Shown piece by piece: positions 57,235-61,751 of a stretch of 64,000 bases of DNA. The notes under the pieces were generated by a model. That model was not told the DNA's origin. It worked only from the letters and a program-made list of their open reading frames with translations, and did no database searches. Origin of the DNA: Rothia nasisuis (lineage in GTDB: Bacteria > Actinomycetota > Actinomycetes > Actinomycetales > Micrococcaceae); assembly GCF_928381405.1 (NCBI RefSeq), contig NZ_CAKMSB010000002.1:248001-312000 (forward strand). The letters are read 5' to 3'. Position 1 is the stretch's first letter. Each line of letters starts with the position of its first letter. The position numbers and the translations under genes were made by a program.

Positions 57235-57573
57235 CTATATTGCTGAGACGCCGCGTTCGCCCGTGCGAACACGTACCACCTCATCAACGGTACTCACCCA
57301 GATTTTTCCATCACCGGCGCTACCGGTGTTGGCCGTTGCGATGATCAGATCAATGATGTCTTCGGCTCGATCAGCCGCTGCCAGAATCTCTAGGCGAACC
57401 TTGGGGATGAGGCGGATATCGTACTCTTTTCCCCGGTAAACCTCCACATGCCCATGCTGGCGGCCGTAGCCCTGAGTCTCCGAAACCGTCATACCGTCAA
57501 CACCGAAGTTTTCGAGTGCCTCACGGATTTCATCATATTTTTCTGGTTGGATCAAAGCTGTAATCAGTTTCAT
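57235..57573 (-). CDS. glnB: Nitrogen regulatory protein PII
   Basis: A 112-residue PII trimeric sensor that binds ATP/ADP and 2-oxoglutarate and blocks AmtB. MKLITALIQPEKYDEIREAL starts the fold, the T-loop is VEVYRGKEYDIRLIPK with Tyr at position 51 (the site that GlnD modifies in actinobacteria), and the PROSITE-type C-terminal motif is TGSAGDGKIWVSTVDEVVRVRTGERG. The ATG at 57573 gives the standard length. It follows amtB by ten bases. glnD is not adjacent although the modifiable Tyr is retained. Confidence 0.96.
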   Translation of the reverse strand: MKLITALIQPEKYDEIREALENFGVDGMTVSETQGYGRQHGHVEVYRGKEYDIRLIPKVRLEILAAADRAEDIIDLIIATANTGSAGDGKIWVSTVDEVVRVRTGERGVSAI

Positions 57574-57583
57574 AGCTCTACCC

Positions 57584-58840
57584 TTAGTTCTTAGAGAAGG
57601 CACCGGAGGCACCCGTTGACATGGCGTAGGCGGTCTCTGCGTGCTGAGCTAGGTCAATGCCCTGAATTTCTTGCTTTTCAGTCACGCGGAAGCCGATAGC
57701 ACGGTGGACAGGAACGACGATTATAAGAGTGACGACTGCGCAGTAAAGCATGGAGATTATCGTAGCTACCGACTGAGTGACCAGTAGACCGAAGCCGCCG
57801 CCATAGAAGAGACCCGCAGTGCCGGTTTCGGGTGTTGCGATAAAGCCCAGCGCCAGGGTTCCGAGGATACCCGAGACCAGATGCACGCCAACAACATCGA
57901 GTGAGTCATCATAGCCAAAGCGATACTTGAGACCAACAGCCCAGCCCGATGCGACGCCGGAGACAAAACCCAGGGCCAGGGCACCAACCGGGCTGACATT
58001 GGCGCAGGCAGGGGTGATAGCCACCAGGCCAGAGACCAGGCCGGATGCTGCGCCCAGGGAGGTCACGTGCCCGTCACGAATACGCTCGAGCAGGGACCAG
58101 CCCAGCATGGCAGCTGCCGGAGCAGCTAGGGTATTGACCCAAATCAGACCAGCCTGAGCACTGTCTGAGGCGGCACCCACGTTGAAACCGAACCAACCGA
58201 ACCAGAGAATTGCAGCACCCAGCATGACCAGGGGCAGGGAGTGGGGGCGCTGATTGGGATCTTCGCCAAACCCCTTGCGGGCACCGAGTACAAGGGCCAG
58301 AATCAGGCCCGCAACACCGGCATTGATGTGGATGACCAGACCACCGGCAAAGTCAATCGCTTCACCAAAGATAGACCCGATGAAGCCCTCTTCACCAAAG
58401 AGACCTCCGCCCCAGACCATAAAGGCCAGCGGGCAGTAGACCAGGGTCAACCACAGGGGCACAAAGATGCACCAGGCACCAAAGCGGGCCCGGTCGGCAA
58501 TTGAGCCGGAGATAATAGCTACCGCGATAATTGCAAAGGTTGAGCTAAAGGCAACAGCCAGCAGGTCTGTTCCCCCAGCTGCCAGAGTGGCTGCCAGCCC
58601 AAGGTCATTGACGGGGGAACCCACAATGTCTGGGATCAGGGCATCTCCCCCGCTCATGCTATAGCCCCACAAGACCCAGCAGACCCCTACCAGTCCCATG
58701 GAAATAATGGACATCATCATCATATTGAGAGCCGACTTGGCTCGGGTCATACCGCTGTAGAAGAGCGCCAAGCCCGGCGTCATGAAGAGCACCAGAGCCG
58801 CGGCGACCACGGTCCACACATCGCTGGCAGTCAGTTCCAT
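57584..58840 (-). CDS. amtB: Ammonium transporter AmtB
   Basis: A 418-residue membrane channel with eleven hydrophobic helices. Both pore His regions are kept (GGLVIHINAGVAGLILAL and DVVGVHLVSGILGTLALG), and ALFYSGMTRAKSALNMM is the conserved first signature. It forms a trimer conducting ammonia or ammonium and is closed by PII. No cleavable signal is visible. The C-terminal tail after the last helix has the conserved RVTEKQEIQGIDLAQHAETAY that PII binds. Upstream repeats resemble GlnR sites, so nitrogen control is likely. Confidence 0.96.
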   Translation of the reverse strand: MELTASDVWTVVAAALVLFMTPGLALFYSGMTRAKSALNMMMMSIISMGLVGVCWVLWGYSMSGGDALIPDIVGSPVNDLGLAATLAAGGTDLLAVAFSSTFAIIAVAIISGSIADRARFGAWCIFVPLWLTLVYCPLAFMVWGGGLFGEEGFIGSIFGEAIDFAGGLVIHINAGVAGLILALVLGARKGFGEDPNQRPHSLPLVMLGAAILWFGWFGFNVGAASDSAQAGLIWVNTLAAPAAAMLGWSLLERIRDGHVTSLGAASGLVSGLVAITPACANVSPVGALALGFVSGVASGWAVGLKYRFGYDDSLDVVGVHLVSGILGTLALGFIATPETGTAGLFYGGGFGLLVTQSVATIISMLYCAVVTLIIVVPVHRAIGFRVTEKQEIQGIDLAQHAETAYAMSTGASGAFSKN

Positions 58841-59142
58841 GACTGTAACCCCTTTTCTTTACCCGTCAGGTTGCCTGTTTCTTAATCTGCTACGAAGCTG
58901 GCCGTGCCAGGCTCCGCCTTGCATGTTTGACAGGTTCTATTCTTCGCCAGGTGTGTTTCACCCAATGTTGGCAAGGGTTACTGGTGAGTTACAGTGGACC
59001 TCTGAGTGTTGCGAGAATGAAAACAGCGGTTACAGGAAGGTTTCACGGGGTAACACCGATGTTTAAAGAAGAAGACCATCTACACCGAAAGACCCGCCTG
59101 GGTTTCCCGATATAGATGGTATTGAGTGGCAGAGGCAATAAG
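58841..59142 (-). promoter_or_regulatory. amtB upstream region with GlnR-like repeats
   Basis: 302 bp between ftsY and amtB. GTTTC (58955), GTTAC (58977) and GTTAC (58988) on the plus strand are set at multiples of 11 bp. A second cluster has GTTAC (59029), GTTTC (59040) and GTAAC (59050). Such five-base elements with six-base spacers resemble the GTnAC-n6-GAAAC sites bound by actinobacterial GlnR. A stem (59075-59120) near the ftsY end may be its terminator. Confidence 0.45.
59075..59120 (-). terminator. Stem-loop after ftsY
   Basis: ACCATCTA (59075-59082) pairs with TAGATGGT (59113-59120), enclosing a second hairpin GAAAgACCC-GCCT-GGGTTTC. No T-run on the minus strand. A two-tier structure that may end ftsY or belong to the amtB leader side. 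Confidence 0.5.
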
Positions 59143-60240
59143 TTAGTCAAGCAGTGCGTCAACAAAGGCACCGGGCTCGAAGGGAGCCAGGTCATCGGGG
59201 CCCTCCCCTAAGCCAATAAGTTTGACCGGCACACCGAGCTCCTCCTGAATTGCCACGACGATACCGCCCTTGGCCGAGCCGTCAAGCTTAGTTAGCACGA
59301 TACCGGTAATCTGTACAACTTCTGAGAATACCTTGGCCTGGATCATGCCGTTCTGGCCGGTCGTTGCATCAATCACTAGGAGCACCTCGGTAACCGGTGC
59401 CTCTTTTTCAACCACGCGCTTAATCTTGCCCAGCTGGTCCATCAGACCGGCCTTGTTCTGCAGGCGGCCCGCAGTATCAATCATGACGGTATCCACCCCA
59501 CGGGCCTTGCCCTCACGAATCGCCTCGAAAGCAACAGAAGCCGGGTCGGCACCGTCCTTATCTGACCGCACCGTATCGACACCCACCCGGTCACCCCAGG
59601 TCTGTAGCTGATCAGCTGCCGCAGCACGGAAGGTATCAGCCGCCCCCAGCAGTAGACTCTTCTCTTCAGCCACCATAACGCGGGCCAGCTTACCCACGGT
59701 GGTTGTCTTACCCACGCCGTTAACACCAACCACCAGCACCACGCCGGGGTTCTCGCCCTCACCGTCCATAGTGAGGGAGCGGTCGGTGTCTTCGCCAACA
59801 ATAGCGAGTAGCTCCTCACGCAACATCTGCTTCACGTGCTCCGGATTCTCGGTACCCTCAACACGCACCCGCTGTTTCAGAGCTTCAACCAGTCGGGTAG
59901 CAGGTTCAGCGCCTACATCAGCAAGAAGCAGGGTCTCCTCAACTTCATCCCAAACGTCCTGATCAATCCTGTCGCGTGAGAGCAGAGCCAACAGGCCCTG
60001 ACCCAGCGCAGTGTTGGAGCGAGAGAGACGGGCCCGCAAACGCACCAGACGGCCCTGGGCGGATGCCGGGCGCTCAATAGTAGTAACAGGCTCACCGGCC
60101 GGTTGCAGATCATCGTCCTCGTGGGTAGTCTCGTAGCCGCCCTTGGGTGCCTTGGGGCCGCGCAGTAGAACTAAAAGCACGCCGCTCAAAATCAGCACAC
60201 CGAGCAGTATGTACACAATCAAAGTCAGAGAATCATTCAC
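59143..60240 (-). CDS. ftsY: SRP receptor FtsY
   Basis: A 365-residue SRP receptor GTPase. An N-terminal hydrophobic helix (LIVYILLGVLILSGVLLVLL) anchors it, as in actinobacterial FtsY, followed by a short acidic linker. The NG domain shows VVGVNGVGKTTTVGKLA, DTAGRLQNKAGLMDQLGKI, VLTKLDGSAKGG and LIGLGEGPDDLAPF. The frame extends to a TTG at 60258, but the GTG at 60240 (VNDSLTL) matches the usual beginning. AAGG abuts it, so the start is not certain. It follows smc (beyond the convergent MFS gene) and precedes amtB, the usual order. Confidence 0.94.
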   Translation of the reverse strand: MNDSLTLIVYILLGVLILSGVLLVLLRGPKAPKGGYETTHEDDDLQPAGEPVTTIERPASAQGRLVRLRARLSRSNTALGQGLLALLSRDRIDQDVWDEVEETLLLADVGAEPATRLVEALKQRVRVEGTENPEHVKQMLREELLAIVGEDTDRSLTMDGEGENPGVVLVVGVNGVGKTTTVGKLARVMVAEEKSLLLGAADTFRAAAADQLQTWGDRVGVDTVRSDKDGADPASVAFEAIREGKARGVDTVMIDTAGRLQNKAGLMDQLGKIKRVVEKEAPVTEVLLVIDATTGQNGMIQAKVFSEVVQITGIVLTKLDGSAKGGIVVAIQEELGVPVKLIGLGEGPDDLAPFEPGAFVDALLD

Positions 60241-60389
60241 CCTTCTAGCTTGCCACAAACAGCCCTGTGTTACAGCCTCCGTAGCAGAGATTAGAACGCA
60301 CTTCTGAGCGCATCACCCCGCACCGGGCAGACGTGAGCTAAGATACTGCTAGCACCGTAACCGCCCACACAGAAACCACGACTTCCTGA

Positions 60390-61751
60390 ATGTCTCATCG
60401 CCTGCCTAACCCCTCCCCCGAAACCGGCGCGCACCCCGTCATTCCACCCGTTACCGCTGACTTACAGGCCCAGCCTGCTCAGGCCGAACATACACCGTCG
60501 ATCAAAATTCCCTCACAGATTAAGGTGCTCATCGCCGCGTCCTTTCTCATTGCGCTTGGCTACGGCCTGGTTGCACCGGTGCTACCTGGCTTTGCCCGTA
60601 GCTTTGACGTAGGTGCCCTGGCAGCAACCTTTGTGGTCTCAGCGTTCGCGCTCTCACGGTTAGCTTTCGCACCGGCCTCCGGCCACCTCATCACCCGCTT
60701 TGGTGAACGCCGTATCTACTCAGCTGGCCTTATCATCGTGGGCATTGGCTCTATCGGTGCGGGTCTTTCTGTCAACTACCCTATGCTGATTGGCGCGCGC
60801 ATTATCGGGGGCACCGGCTCGGTTATGTTTACTGTAGCGGCCATGGGCATTCTTGTACGCAACTCGCCGCCCACCATTAGGGGCAGGGTCTCGGGCTATT
60901 TTGCAACATCTTTTCTGTTGGGCAATATTCTGGGCCCGGTGCTCGGTGCGGCCGCCTCCTCGCTCGGTATGCGAGTGCCTTTTTTCGTCTACGCAGCCAT
61001 GCTTCTCTGCGCCTCGCTGGTGGTGCTGACTCAACTCAAAGACCAGCCCCACGAGGTACACCTGAACACCCAGGGTATTGAAGTACCCAAGCCCGAACTT
61101 AAGTTCAGCGATGCCCTAGGCTTCACCAACTACAAGGCGGCCCTCTTCACCAATTTCACCGTAGGCTGGGCCATTTTCGGTCTGCAATCAACAGTGCTAC
61201 CGCTGGCAGCTGTAGCGCTACTTACCACCCTGCACACGGGTGAAAGCGGCTACGACCCCGCCTTAGAAGGCGCCCGCCTGGCCGGTTTTACGCTCGCTTC
61301 TTTTGCAGCGGGTAACGCCCTCATGCAGATATACTCAGGCAAGATGGGCGACAGGGTGGGCCGCCGCCCCATGGTCTTCTCAGGGCTAATCCTAGCGGGC
61401 ACTATCACCATCGTCTTTGGAACCATCACACTGCCCCTGCTCTTTGTATGTGCAGCTGTGCTACTCGGTATCTCAGCGGCCCTGGTAGGGCCCTCACTCC
61501 AGGCTGCCGTGTCTGATGTGGTGGGCAACAAACGCTCCGGCGGCCAGCCCCTGGCCTACTACCAGATGGCCTCAGATATCGGCATGATTGCAGGGCCGCT
61601 CATCGCTGGCTTCATCATTGACAGCTCAGGTTACTTCCCCGCTTTCGCGCTAGCTGGTGCTCTTCTGCTGGTTGCAGCAGCAGGCTGGTTCCCCGGCTAC
61701 GCCCCCAAGTACCCGCAAGACGTTGCCGACCCGGGCTATACCGGCACATAG
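60390..61751 (+). CDS. Major facilitator superfamily transporter
   Basis: A 453-residue membrane protein with twelve hydrophobic helices. A Pro/Ala-rich cytoplasmic N-terminus of about 45 residues precedes helix 1 (VLIAASFLIALGYGLVAPVLPGF). Motif A-like GHLITRFGERRIY lies between helices 2 and 3, and GKMGDRVGRRPMVFSG in the second half; GNILGPVLGAAAS resembles motif C of drug/proton antiporters. Efflux is therefore likelier than uptake; substrate unknown. It is convergent with smc, with only four bases between stops, and divergent from ftsY. Confidence 0.9.
   Translation: MSHRLPNPSPETGAHPVIPPVTADLQAQPAQAEHTPSIKIPSQIKVLIAASFLIALGYGLVAPVLPGFARSFDVGALAATFVVSAFALSRLAFAPASGHLITRFGERRIYSAGLIIVGIGSIGAGLSVNYPMLIGARIIGGTGSVMFTVAAMGILVRNSPPTIRGRVSGYFATSFLLGNILGPVLGAAASSLGMRVPFFVYAAMLLCASLVVLTQLKDQPHEVHLNTQGIEVPKPELKFSDALGFTNYKAALFTNFTVGWAIFGLQSTVLPLAAVALLTTLHTGESGYDPALEGARLAGFTLASFAAGNALMQIYSGKMGDRVGRRPMVFSGLILAGTITIVFGTITLPLLFVCAAVLLGISAALVGPSLQAAVSDVVGNKRSGGQPLAYYQMASDIGMIAGPLIAGFIIDSSGYFPAFALAGALLLVAAAGWFPGYAPKYPQDVADPGYTGT

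Follow-up and report, generated by a model that had tools for sequence, protein, structure and literature searches.

A predicted GlnR operator upstream of the amtB-glnB operon in Rothia nasisuis

The DNA analyzed here, termed the window, is a 64,000 nt stretch of Rothia nasisuis (contig C2, positions 248001-312000; the assembly is 2.72 Mb in 76 contigs). It carries an operon on the minus strand consisting of amtB (57584..58840), which encodes an ammonium transporter of 418 aa (TIGR00836, 400.1 bits, cut-off 343.3), and, as second gene, glnB/glnK (57235..57573), which encodes a PII signalling protein of 112 aa (best E-value to P-II models = 2.7e-36, with both model matches under their curated cut-offs). 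Upstream is ftsY (59143-60258, minus strand; TIGR00064, 336.2 bits), and the intergenic region between ftsY and amtB is 302 bp. An earlier note, made from the sequence of the window, pointed to GlnR-like repeats with 11-bp phasing in this region. The question is whether these repeats form an operator and, if so, which regulator occupies it.

The 100-bp stretch that holds the repeats is, on the evidence of its sequence, very probably a GlnR operator of the amtB-glnB operon. The support on hand consists of the sites, their excess over chance, their conservation, a GlnR gene, an operator at glnA and the lack of an AmtR-like protein. From studied relatives we infer that GlnR binds here, that it activates the operon when nitrogen is limiting, and where the core promoter lies.

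Read on the plus strand, the six words are GTTTC at 58955, GTTAC at 58977, 58988 and 59029, GTTTC at 59040, and GTAAC at 59050. Five of these are the GTTTC/GTTAC elements given in the earlier note; the sixth, at 59050, is the reverse complement of GTTAC and had been misread as one of them. On the amtB strand the words form two groups. The upstream group is GTTAC (59050..59054), GAAAC (59040..59044) and GTAAC (59029..59033), at 214, 204 and 193 bp before the ATG. The first of these is 10 bp before the next and is found in the same register in close relatives; the other two are supported by word position and a 12-row alignment of Rothia promoters. The proximal group is GTAAC (58988..58992), GTAAC (58977..58981) and GAAAC (58955..58959), at 152, 141 and 119 bp before the ATG. 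The outer two members of this group are supported by word position, register profile and the 12-row alignment, and the middle one is GAAAC in 10 of the 12 aligned rows. The positions, 119-214 bp before the ATG, agree with the 115-215 bp proposed earlier.

Steps between the six words, beginning at the far end, are 10, 11, 41, 11 and 22 bp. Within the groups the words are thus 10, 11 or 22 bp apart; between them, the 41-bp step is about four helical turns but no multiple of 11. The six words of the earlier note are real, but the note had also missed two sites on the same strand. One is GCAAC (59008..59012), at register -53 from the last half-site, which divides the 41-bp step into 21 + 20 bp and is conserved in the 12 close Rothia rows. 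The other, assigned by word position, is a degenerate third register of the proximal box, CAACA (58966..58970). The window site therefore totals six canonical half-sites and one GCAAC.

A GlnR operator is marked by direct repeats of GTnAC/GAAAC about 11 bp apart; the steps of 10 and 11 bp in the upstream group and of 11 and 22 bp in the proximal group are of this kind, and the words lie before a nitrogen operon, on its coding strand. The window site is not a classical unbroken a-b-a-b tetrad (four good half-sites with 6-bp spacers), since CAACA takes the place of the third half-site and one of the spacers has only 5 bp. This tetrad is the classical form of a GlnR operator and not a requirement: the amtB operator of Streptomyces coelicolor, which is proven by experiment, likewise deviates from it, at a2 (PMC5826061). 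Some features speak against a GlnR operator: a GTAAC occupies the b site of the proximal box, for which the consensus is GAAAC; the third half-site of this box is poor; and the upstream group begins with a pair spaced by 10 bp, not 11. The consensus given in PMC10704036 is gTnAc-n6-GaAAc-n6-GtnAC-n6-GAAAc. The same source describes GlnR boxes as frequently located on the coding strand; with this, and with the layout of S. coelicolor amtB described below, the worry of the earlier note about strand and order largely falls away.

A hairpin situated between ftsY and the repeats (59075..59120, minus strand; -28.3 kcal/mol, z = -5.69) is followed by CUUCUUCUUU, a U-rich run. This is probably the terminator of ftsY, and the repeats (59054-58955) therefore most likely belong to the amtB promoter. 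A possible -10 element, AATAGA (58936..58941, minus strand), was picked out by eye 18 nt downstream of where the last half-site begins. An AATAG block is common to 11 of the 12 aligned Rothia rows; the remaining row (L032) displays AATGAG.

Six words in 100 bp is the maximum found on either strand of the window, which has 163 such words on the minus strand and 142 on the plus strand; the next best separate place has four. None of 20,000 dinucleotide shuffles of the 302-bp region reaches the observed counts: 9 words, where the shuffles average 1.2, 3 pairs spaced by 10/11 bp (average 0.009), 7 pairs spaced by one to three turns (0.025) and 6 words in 100 bp (1.0). Of the two tests, the comparison across the window is the fairer one, because the shuffled region was selected with its repeats already in view. 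The six words before amtB are not due to chance. The next best place, at 60357-60450 on the plus strand, is the second densest separate cluster of the window and consists of four GTAAC/GAAAC/GTTAC words around the start of a transporter-like open reading frame (60390-61751); it has no pairs at 10 or 11 bp.

Within the genus, amtB matches are found in 24 of 35 genomes (22 near full length and two shortened). There is no match at 1e-60 in the other 11, one of which (G023) is only 72% complete. The 12 closest of the 24 Rothia promoters were aligned, which excludes L041 (without the upstream group) and L042-L052. Invariant columns make up 29 of 35 half-site positions and 18 of 107 other positions (Fisher p = 2e-12, a value that is too small because the compared sequences are close relatives). 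Across all 24 promoters, GNNAC is found at -33 in 16 rows and at -34 in 7, at -22 in 14 and at -23 in 7, and at -74, -85 and -95 in 12, 10 and 9. The proximal box is more general than the upstream group, which is not genus-wide. The maximum of canonical half-sites in 116 bp varies from 3 to 7, and a long array is therefore not general in Rothia. In seven promoters (L033-L037, L053 and L054), seven canonical words and the GCAAC are arranged in the same way, except that one step of L054 is 2 bp longer; L043 likewise has seven words in 116 bp.

L053 (genome G004) and L054 (G028) are the two loci with shortened amtB frames, 311 and 287 aa, and their glnB is broken or nearly lost. Both keep the upstream half-sites, but G028 has acquired 2 bp within the 11-bp step of its proximal box. 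They may represent a natural case of operator decay after gene loss.

A search with the window glnB sequence (1e-20) gave PII matches in 17 of the 35 genomes, one of them partial. For GlnD (TIGR01693), no protein of the 35 genomes is above the cut-off and there are partial matches only; because just 2 of 14 control genomes pass this cut-off, the result no more than suggests that a PII-modifying enzyme is lacking. A glnD gene beside amtB-glnB was not seen in two Micrococcaceae loci (L123 and L130).

The earlier reading depended on a GlnR gene in the genome, and one is encoded at C11:32039-32737. Its product matches Pfam GlnR_1st (113.7 bits, cut-off 27) and also Trans_reg_C. With phmmer, the best PDB match is 8hig (E-value = 1e-67), and 4o1h, entitled "Transcription regulator GlnR", has an E-value of 1.4e-18. 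NCBIfam gave no GlnR model among the best 25 of 38 matches, and other OmpR-type models are under cut-off only; the identity of the protein is thus settled by the Pfam and PDB matches. The gene that follows encodes a GNAT acetyltransferase and is presumably mshD, the usual neighbour of glnR. All 35 genomes of the genus have a glnR match (1e-20 or better), the best in each being at least 48% identical. In five genomes this best match had an internal stop. The stretches fetched from these five align from residue 1, 2 or 6 to residue 229 of 233, and the aligned GlnR protein is intact in each; the stop in L221 is situated before a likely start. Concerning autoregulation, the 520 bp ending just past the likely glnR start has no half-site on the coding strand, one on the other strand and no array.

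There are eight OmpR-type places in the genome, of which C11:32489-32713 is within the GlnR protein. A further OmpR-type protein, of ~257 aa (L009; C7:58239-58463), has a DNA-binding part that resembles that of 8hml, which the GlnR of this genome also matches. This protein was considered as a second GlnR; it has a single PDB match at 1e-15 or better (E-value = 9.8e-16, residues 154-243) and no match at 1e-15 outside these residues.

A second target in the same genome is the glnA promoter, which the earlier note had proposed to scan. It displays GTTAC-n6-GAAAC-n6-GACAC-n6-GCAAA, beginning 128 bp before the ATG, and thus carries the same motif. glnA matches are present in all 35 genomes, and 30 loci were fetched. 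An exact GT(T/A)AC-n6-GAAAC precedes glnA by no more than 250 bp in 27 of these loci; none of the 30 has it on the antisense strand. The exact pair is missing from three loci: L120 and L121 have a variant first site and L119 (G033) has none. Ten of the 11 genomes without an amtB match are among the 27 with the exact glnA pair.

Patterns were also scanned against the whole genome. The bare GTnAC-n6-GAAAC pair is not enriched (9 places, and 13 for a reversed-pattern control), so that one lone pair would prove nothing, and a simple consensus scan was rejected as proof; the amtB box is not among the 9 exact places. A three-half-site pattern derived from the window was also set aside, its sole exact place being the window site itself, which is circular. 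With one mismatch it gives 16 further places, one of them in the glnA promoter, versus 18 control places in all. A four-site pattern derived from glnA, with up to 2 mismatches, gives 16 places versus 8 in the control (glnA is exact and the other 15 have 2 mismatches); it does not recover the amtB box, and by a crude open reading frame test 12 of its places are inside open reading frames and 4 outside. No wider GlnR regulon is therefore established from these scans.

The spacing of the half-sites was compared with amtB loci of public genomes, using the best 80 loci among the matches listed, one of which is from Rothia santali. Sense-strand half-sites recur at spacings of 11 bp (33 pairs), 22 (36), 31 (29), 33 (23), 42 (32) and 53 (37), and any other spacing from 5 to 60 has no more than 5 pairs. 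In total the sense strand has 256 half-sites, the antisense strand 113 (a count inflated because GTTAC and GTAAC are reverse complements) and a coding control 10. At least three half-sites are present in 64, 7 and 0 of the 80 loci, respectively. Six loci (L131, L137, L157, L197, L199 and L200) have none, and the one locus named Corynebacterium (L169) has one.

For a register profile, rows were anchored by hits at -22, -33, -53, -75 and -86, and counts at these registers are biased upward because the anchors were chosen by them; -95 and -106 were not used. Rows that could be anchored are 24/24 in Rothia, 14/14 in Streptomyces, 13/13 in Micrococcaceae, 6/8 in the Microbacterium group and 9/41 in other actinobacteria; four of the 80 loci (L131, L145, L169 and L174) were placed in no group. 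The 14 Streptomyces loci all show coding-strand GNNAC at 0, -22 and -33, and 13 show it at -53, where most have GTAAC. In the 13 Micrococcaceae loci, registers 0 and -33 are occupied in all and -75 and -86 in 12. The window carries both register sets within one bp, plus -95.

The closest known system is the amtB promoter of Streptomyces coelicolor. PMC5826061 describes three GlnR boxes there, a3-b3, a1-b1 and a2-b2, in which a2 is atypical and dispensable while activity suffers when any of the other five sites is mutated; the three boxes lead to prompter activation, and six GlnR sites were termed "so far the largest number" in one promoter in 2018. The window shares with this promoter the gene, a poor third register before the last site and an extra upstream box. 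Its proximal sequence GTAAC-n6-GTAAC-n17-GAAAC fits a1-b1-(a2)-b2, with 58992 a1-like, 58981 b1-like, 58970 a2-like and 58959 b2-like; an order that the earlier note had taken as a departure from the consensus is thus a known layout (PMC5826061). Unlike S. coelicolor, the window adds canonical half-sites at -74, -85 and -95, and a step of 41 bp, about four turns, separates its upstream group from the proximal box. Registers 0, -22, -33 and -53 are shared with the 14 other Streptomyces loci, but the -53 site is GCAAC in the window. With Arthrobacter and other Micrococcaceae the window shares 0, -33, -74 and -85. It differs from them in having GTAAC at -22, where 11 of 13 rows lack GAAAC, GTAAC and GTTAC, and also in its GCAAC at -53 and its additional half-site at -95.

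A second comparison is the nas operon of Amycolatopsis mediterranei, where a1-b1-b2 is sufficient and a2 is not needed (PMC10704036). This operator resembles the window in having two sites 11 bp apart, a dispensable register and a last site; the gene is a different one, and the b1-b2 spacer is 16 bp there and 17 bp in the window. Expression in a family relative is in line with activation when ammonium is short: in Arthrobacter sp. M7-15, nitrate gave higher amtB and glnB/glnK than ammonium did, and GlnR is the regulator that the authors propose (PMC12010642).

A working model can be based on these systems. The GlnR activation complex as outlined in PMC10704036 has four DNA-binding domains arranged head to tail. 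In the window, GlnR subunits would sit head to tail, one on each GTnAC/GAAAC half-site and along one face of the helix. The proximal set (58992, 58981, the degenerate 58970, and 58959) would end beside the core promoter and, under nitrogen shortage, would recruit RNA polymerase. Higher occupancy and a faster response would come from the upstream group (59054, 59044 and 59033, with 59012 as a weak link), a role modelled on the extra box of S. coelicolor amtB.

Among other regulators, the OmpR-type protein MtrA has the strongest case. It may be the main or a competing occupant that represses amtB in rich medium, at an operator shared with GlnR; this is possible, though GlnR is favoured. An mtrA gene is encoded (C9:71056-71283; phmmer E-value = 4.4e-85 to 2gwr). 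In PMC9045223, MtrA is reported to bind the amtB, glnA and glnR promoters, to repress nitrogen genes and to compete with GlnR for such sites; this evidence is from Streptomyces, and the motif common to glnA and amtB fits known GlnR targets. Two near-matches of GTCACG type elsewhere in the genome suggest, weakly, that MtrA sites may look different. They are 11-bp repeats outside open reading frames (L209 and L220, each at ~1501-1537; C3:36215 and C18:3706), precede two genes for LGFP-repeat proteins, of which one has a CAP domain, and possibly are MtrA-type sites. Since binding by MtrA does not exclude GlnR, the likelihoods of the two are not exclusive. Joint control is quite possible because MtrA is encoded and competition is reported in Streptomyces (PMC9045223).

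It is improbable that the 11-nt direct repeats serve a phosphate regulator of the PhoP/RegX3 type with nitrogen control secondary. A RegX3-type gene is present (C20:22907-23137; E-value = 6.8e-108 to 2oqr), and in the S. coelicolor amtB promoter the a3-b3 box is one for which PhoP and GlnR compete (PMC5826061). The core of the PhoP site, however, is GTTCA; the amtB words are GTTAC, GTAAC and GAAAC, and GTTCA is absent from both strands of the 302-bp region.

Control by AmtR, a TetR-type repressor of nitrogen genes in Corynebacterium that is found beside GlnR in a few other actinobacteria (PMC10704036), is highly improbable, and this objection in the earlier note is answered. The best of 21 TetR-like places in the genome matches AmtR with 32.5 bits (residues 9-108 of 222), whereas a divergent AmtR (5e57, "Transcription regulator AmtR") gives 126.5 bits. 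We take 5e57 to be the AmtR of M. smegmatis. None of the 21 places scores like AmtR, NCBIfam shows no AmtR model for the 5 of these proteins searched, and the best match to the AmtR core in the intergenic region has 2 of 8 letters wrong. Least credible is that the short words came together between the two genes by chance: a single pair is no commoner than its reversed control, but no shuffle reaches the counts, the spacings recur in other actinobacteria, and conservation of the half-sites in position and letters in close Rothia refutes it.

The reading as a GlnR operator, which the GlnR gene and the glnA motif support together with the sites, almost certainly represents ordinary actinobacterial biology in a little-studied genus, though the sites are rather numerous for one row. 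Literature on GlnR with Rothia, on GlnR with Arthrobacter, on GlnR regulons and on Micrococcaceae amtB boxes gave nothing on this promoter; an earlier prediction may exist, since most subscription papers and regulon databases were outside the scope of the search. New would be, at most, the genus and, in one clade, an array of seven to eight half-sites. That the amtB operator of this clade has grown into a single array, with seven to eight GlnR half-sites in helical phase, at registers 0, -22, -33, -53, -74, -85 and -95, plus -106 in relatives, is a tentative and rather unlikely proposal. If it is true and GlnR polymerises along the whole array, the result would be an unusually steep or fast switch for ammonium uptake. 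Members of the genus that have lost amtB but retain glnR provide a natural experiment on the order in which sites decay. More generally, the findings place nitrogen control of Rothia among the GlnR systems and give a compact comparative picture of the amtB operator, with spacings of 11, 22, 31, 33, 42 and 53 bp recurring in actinobacteria.
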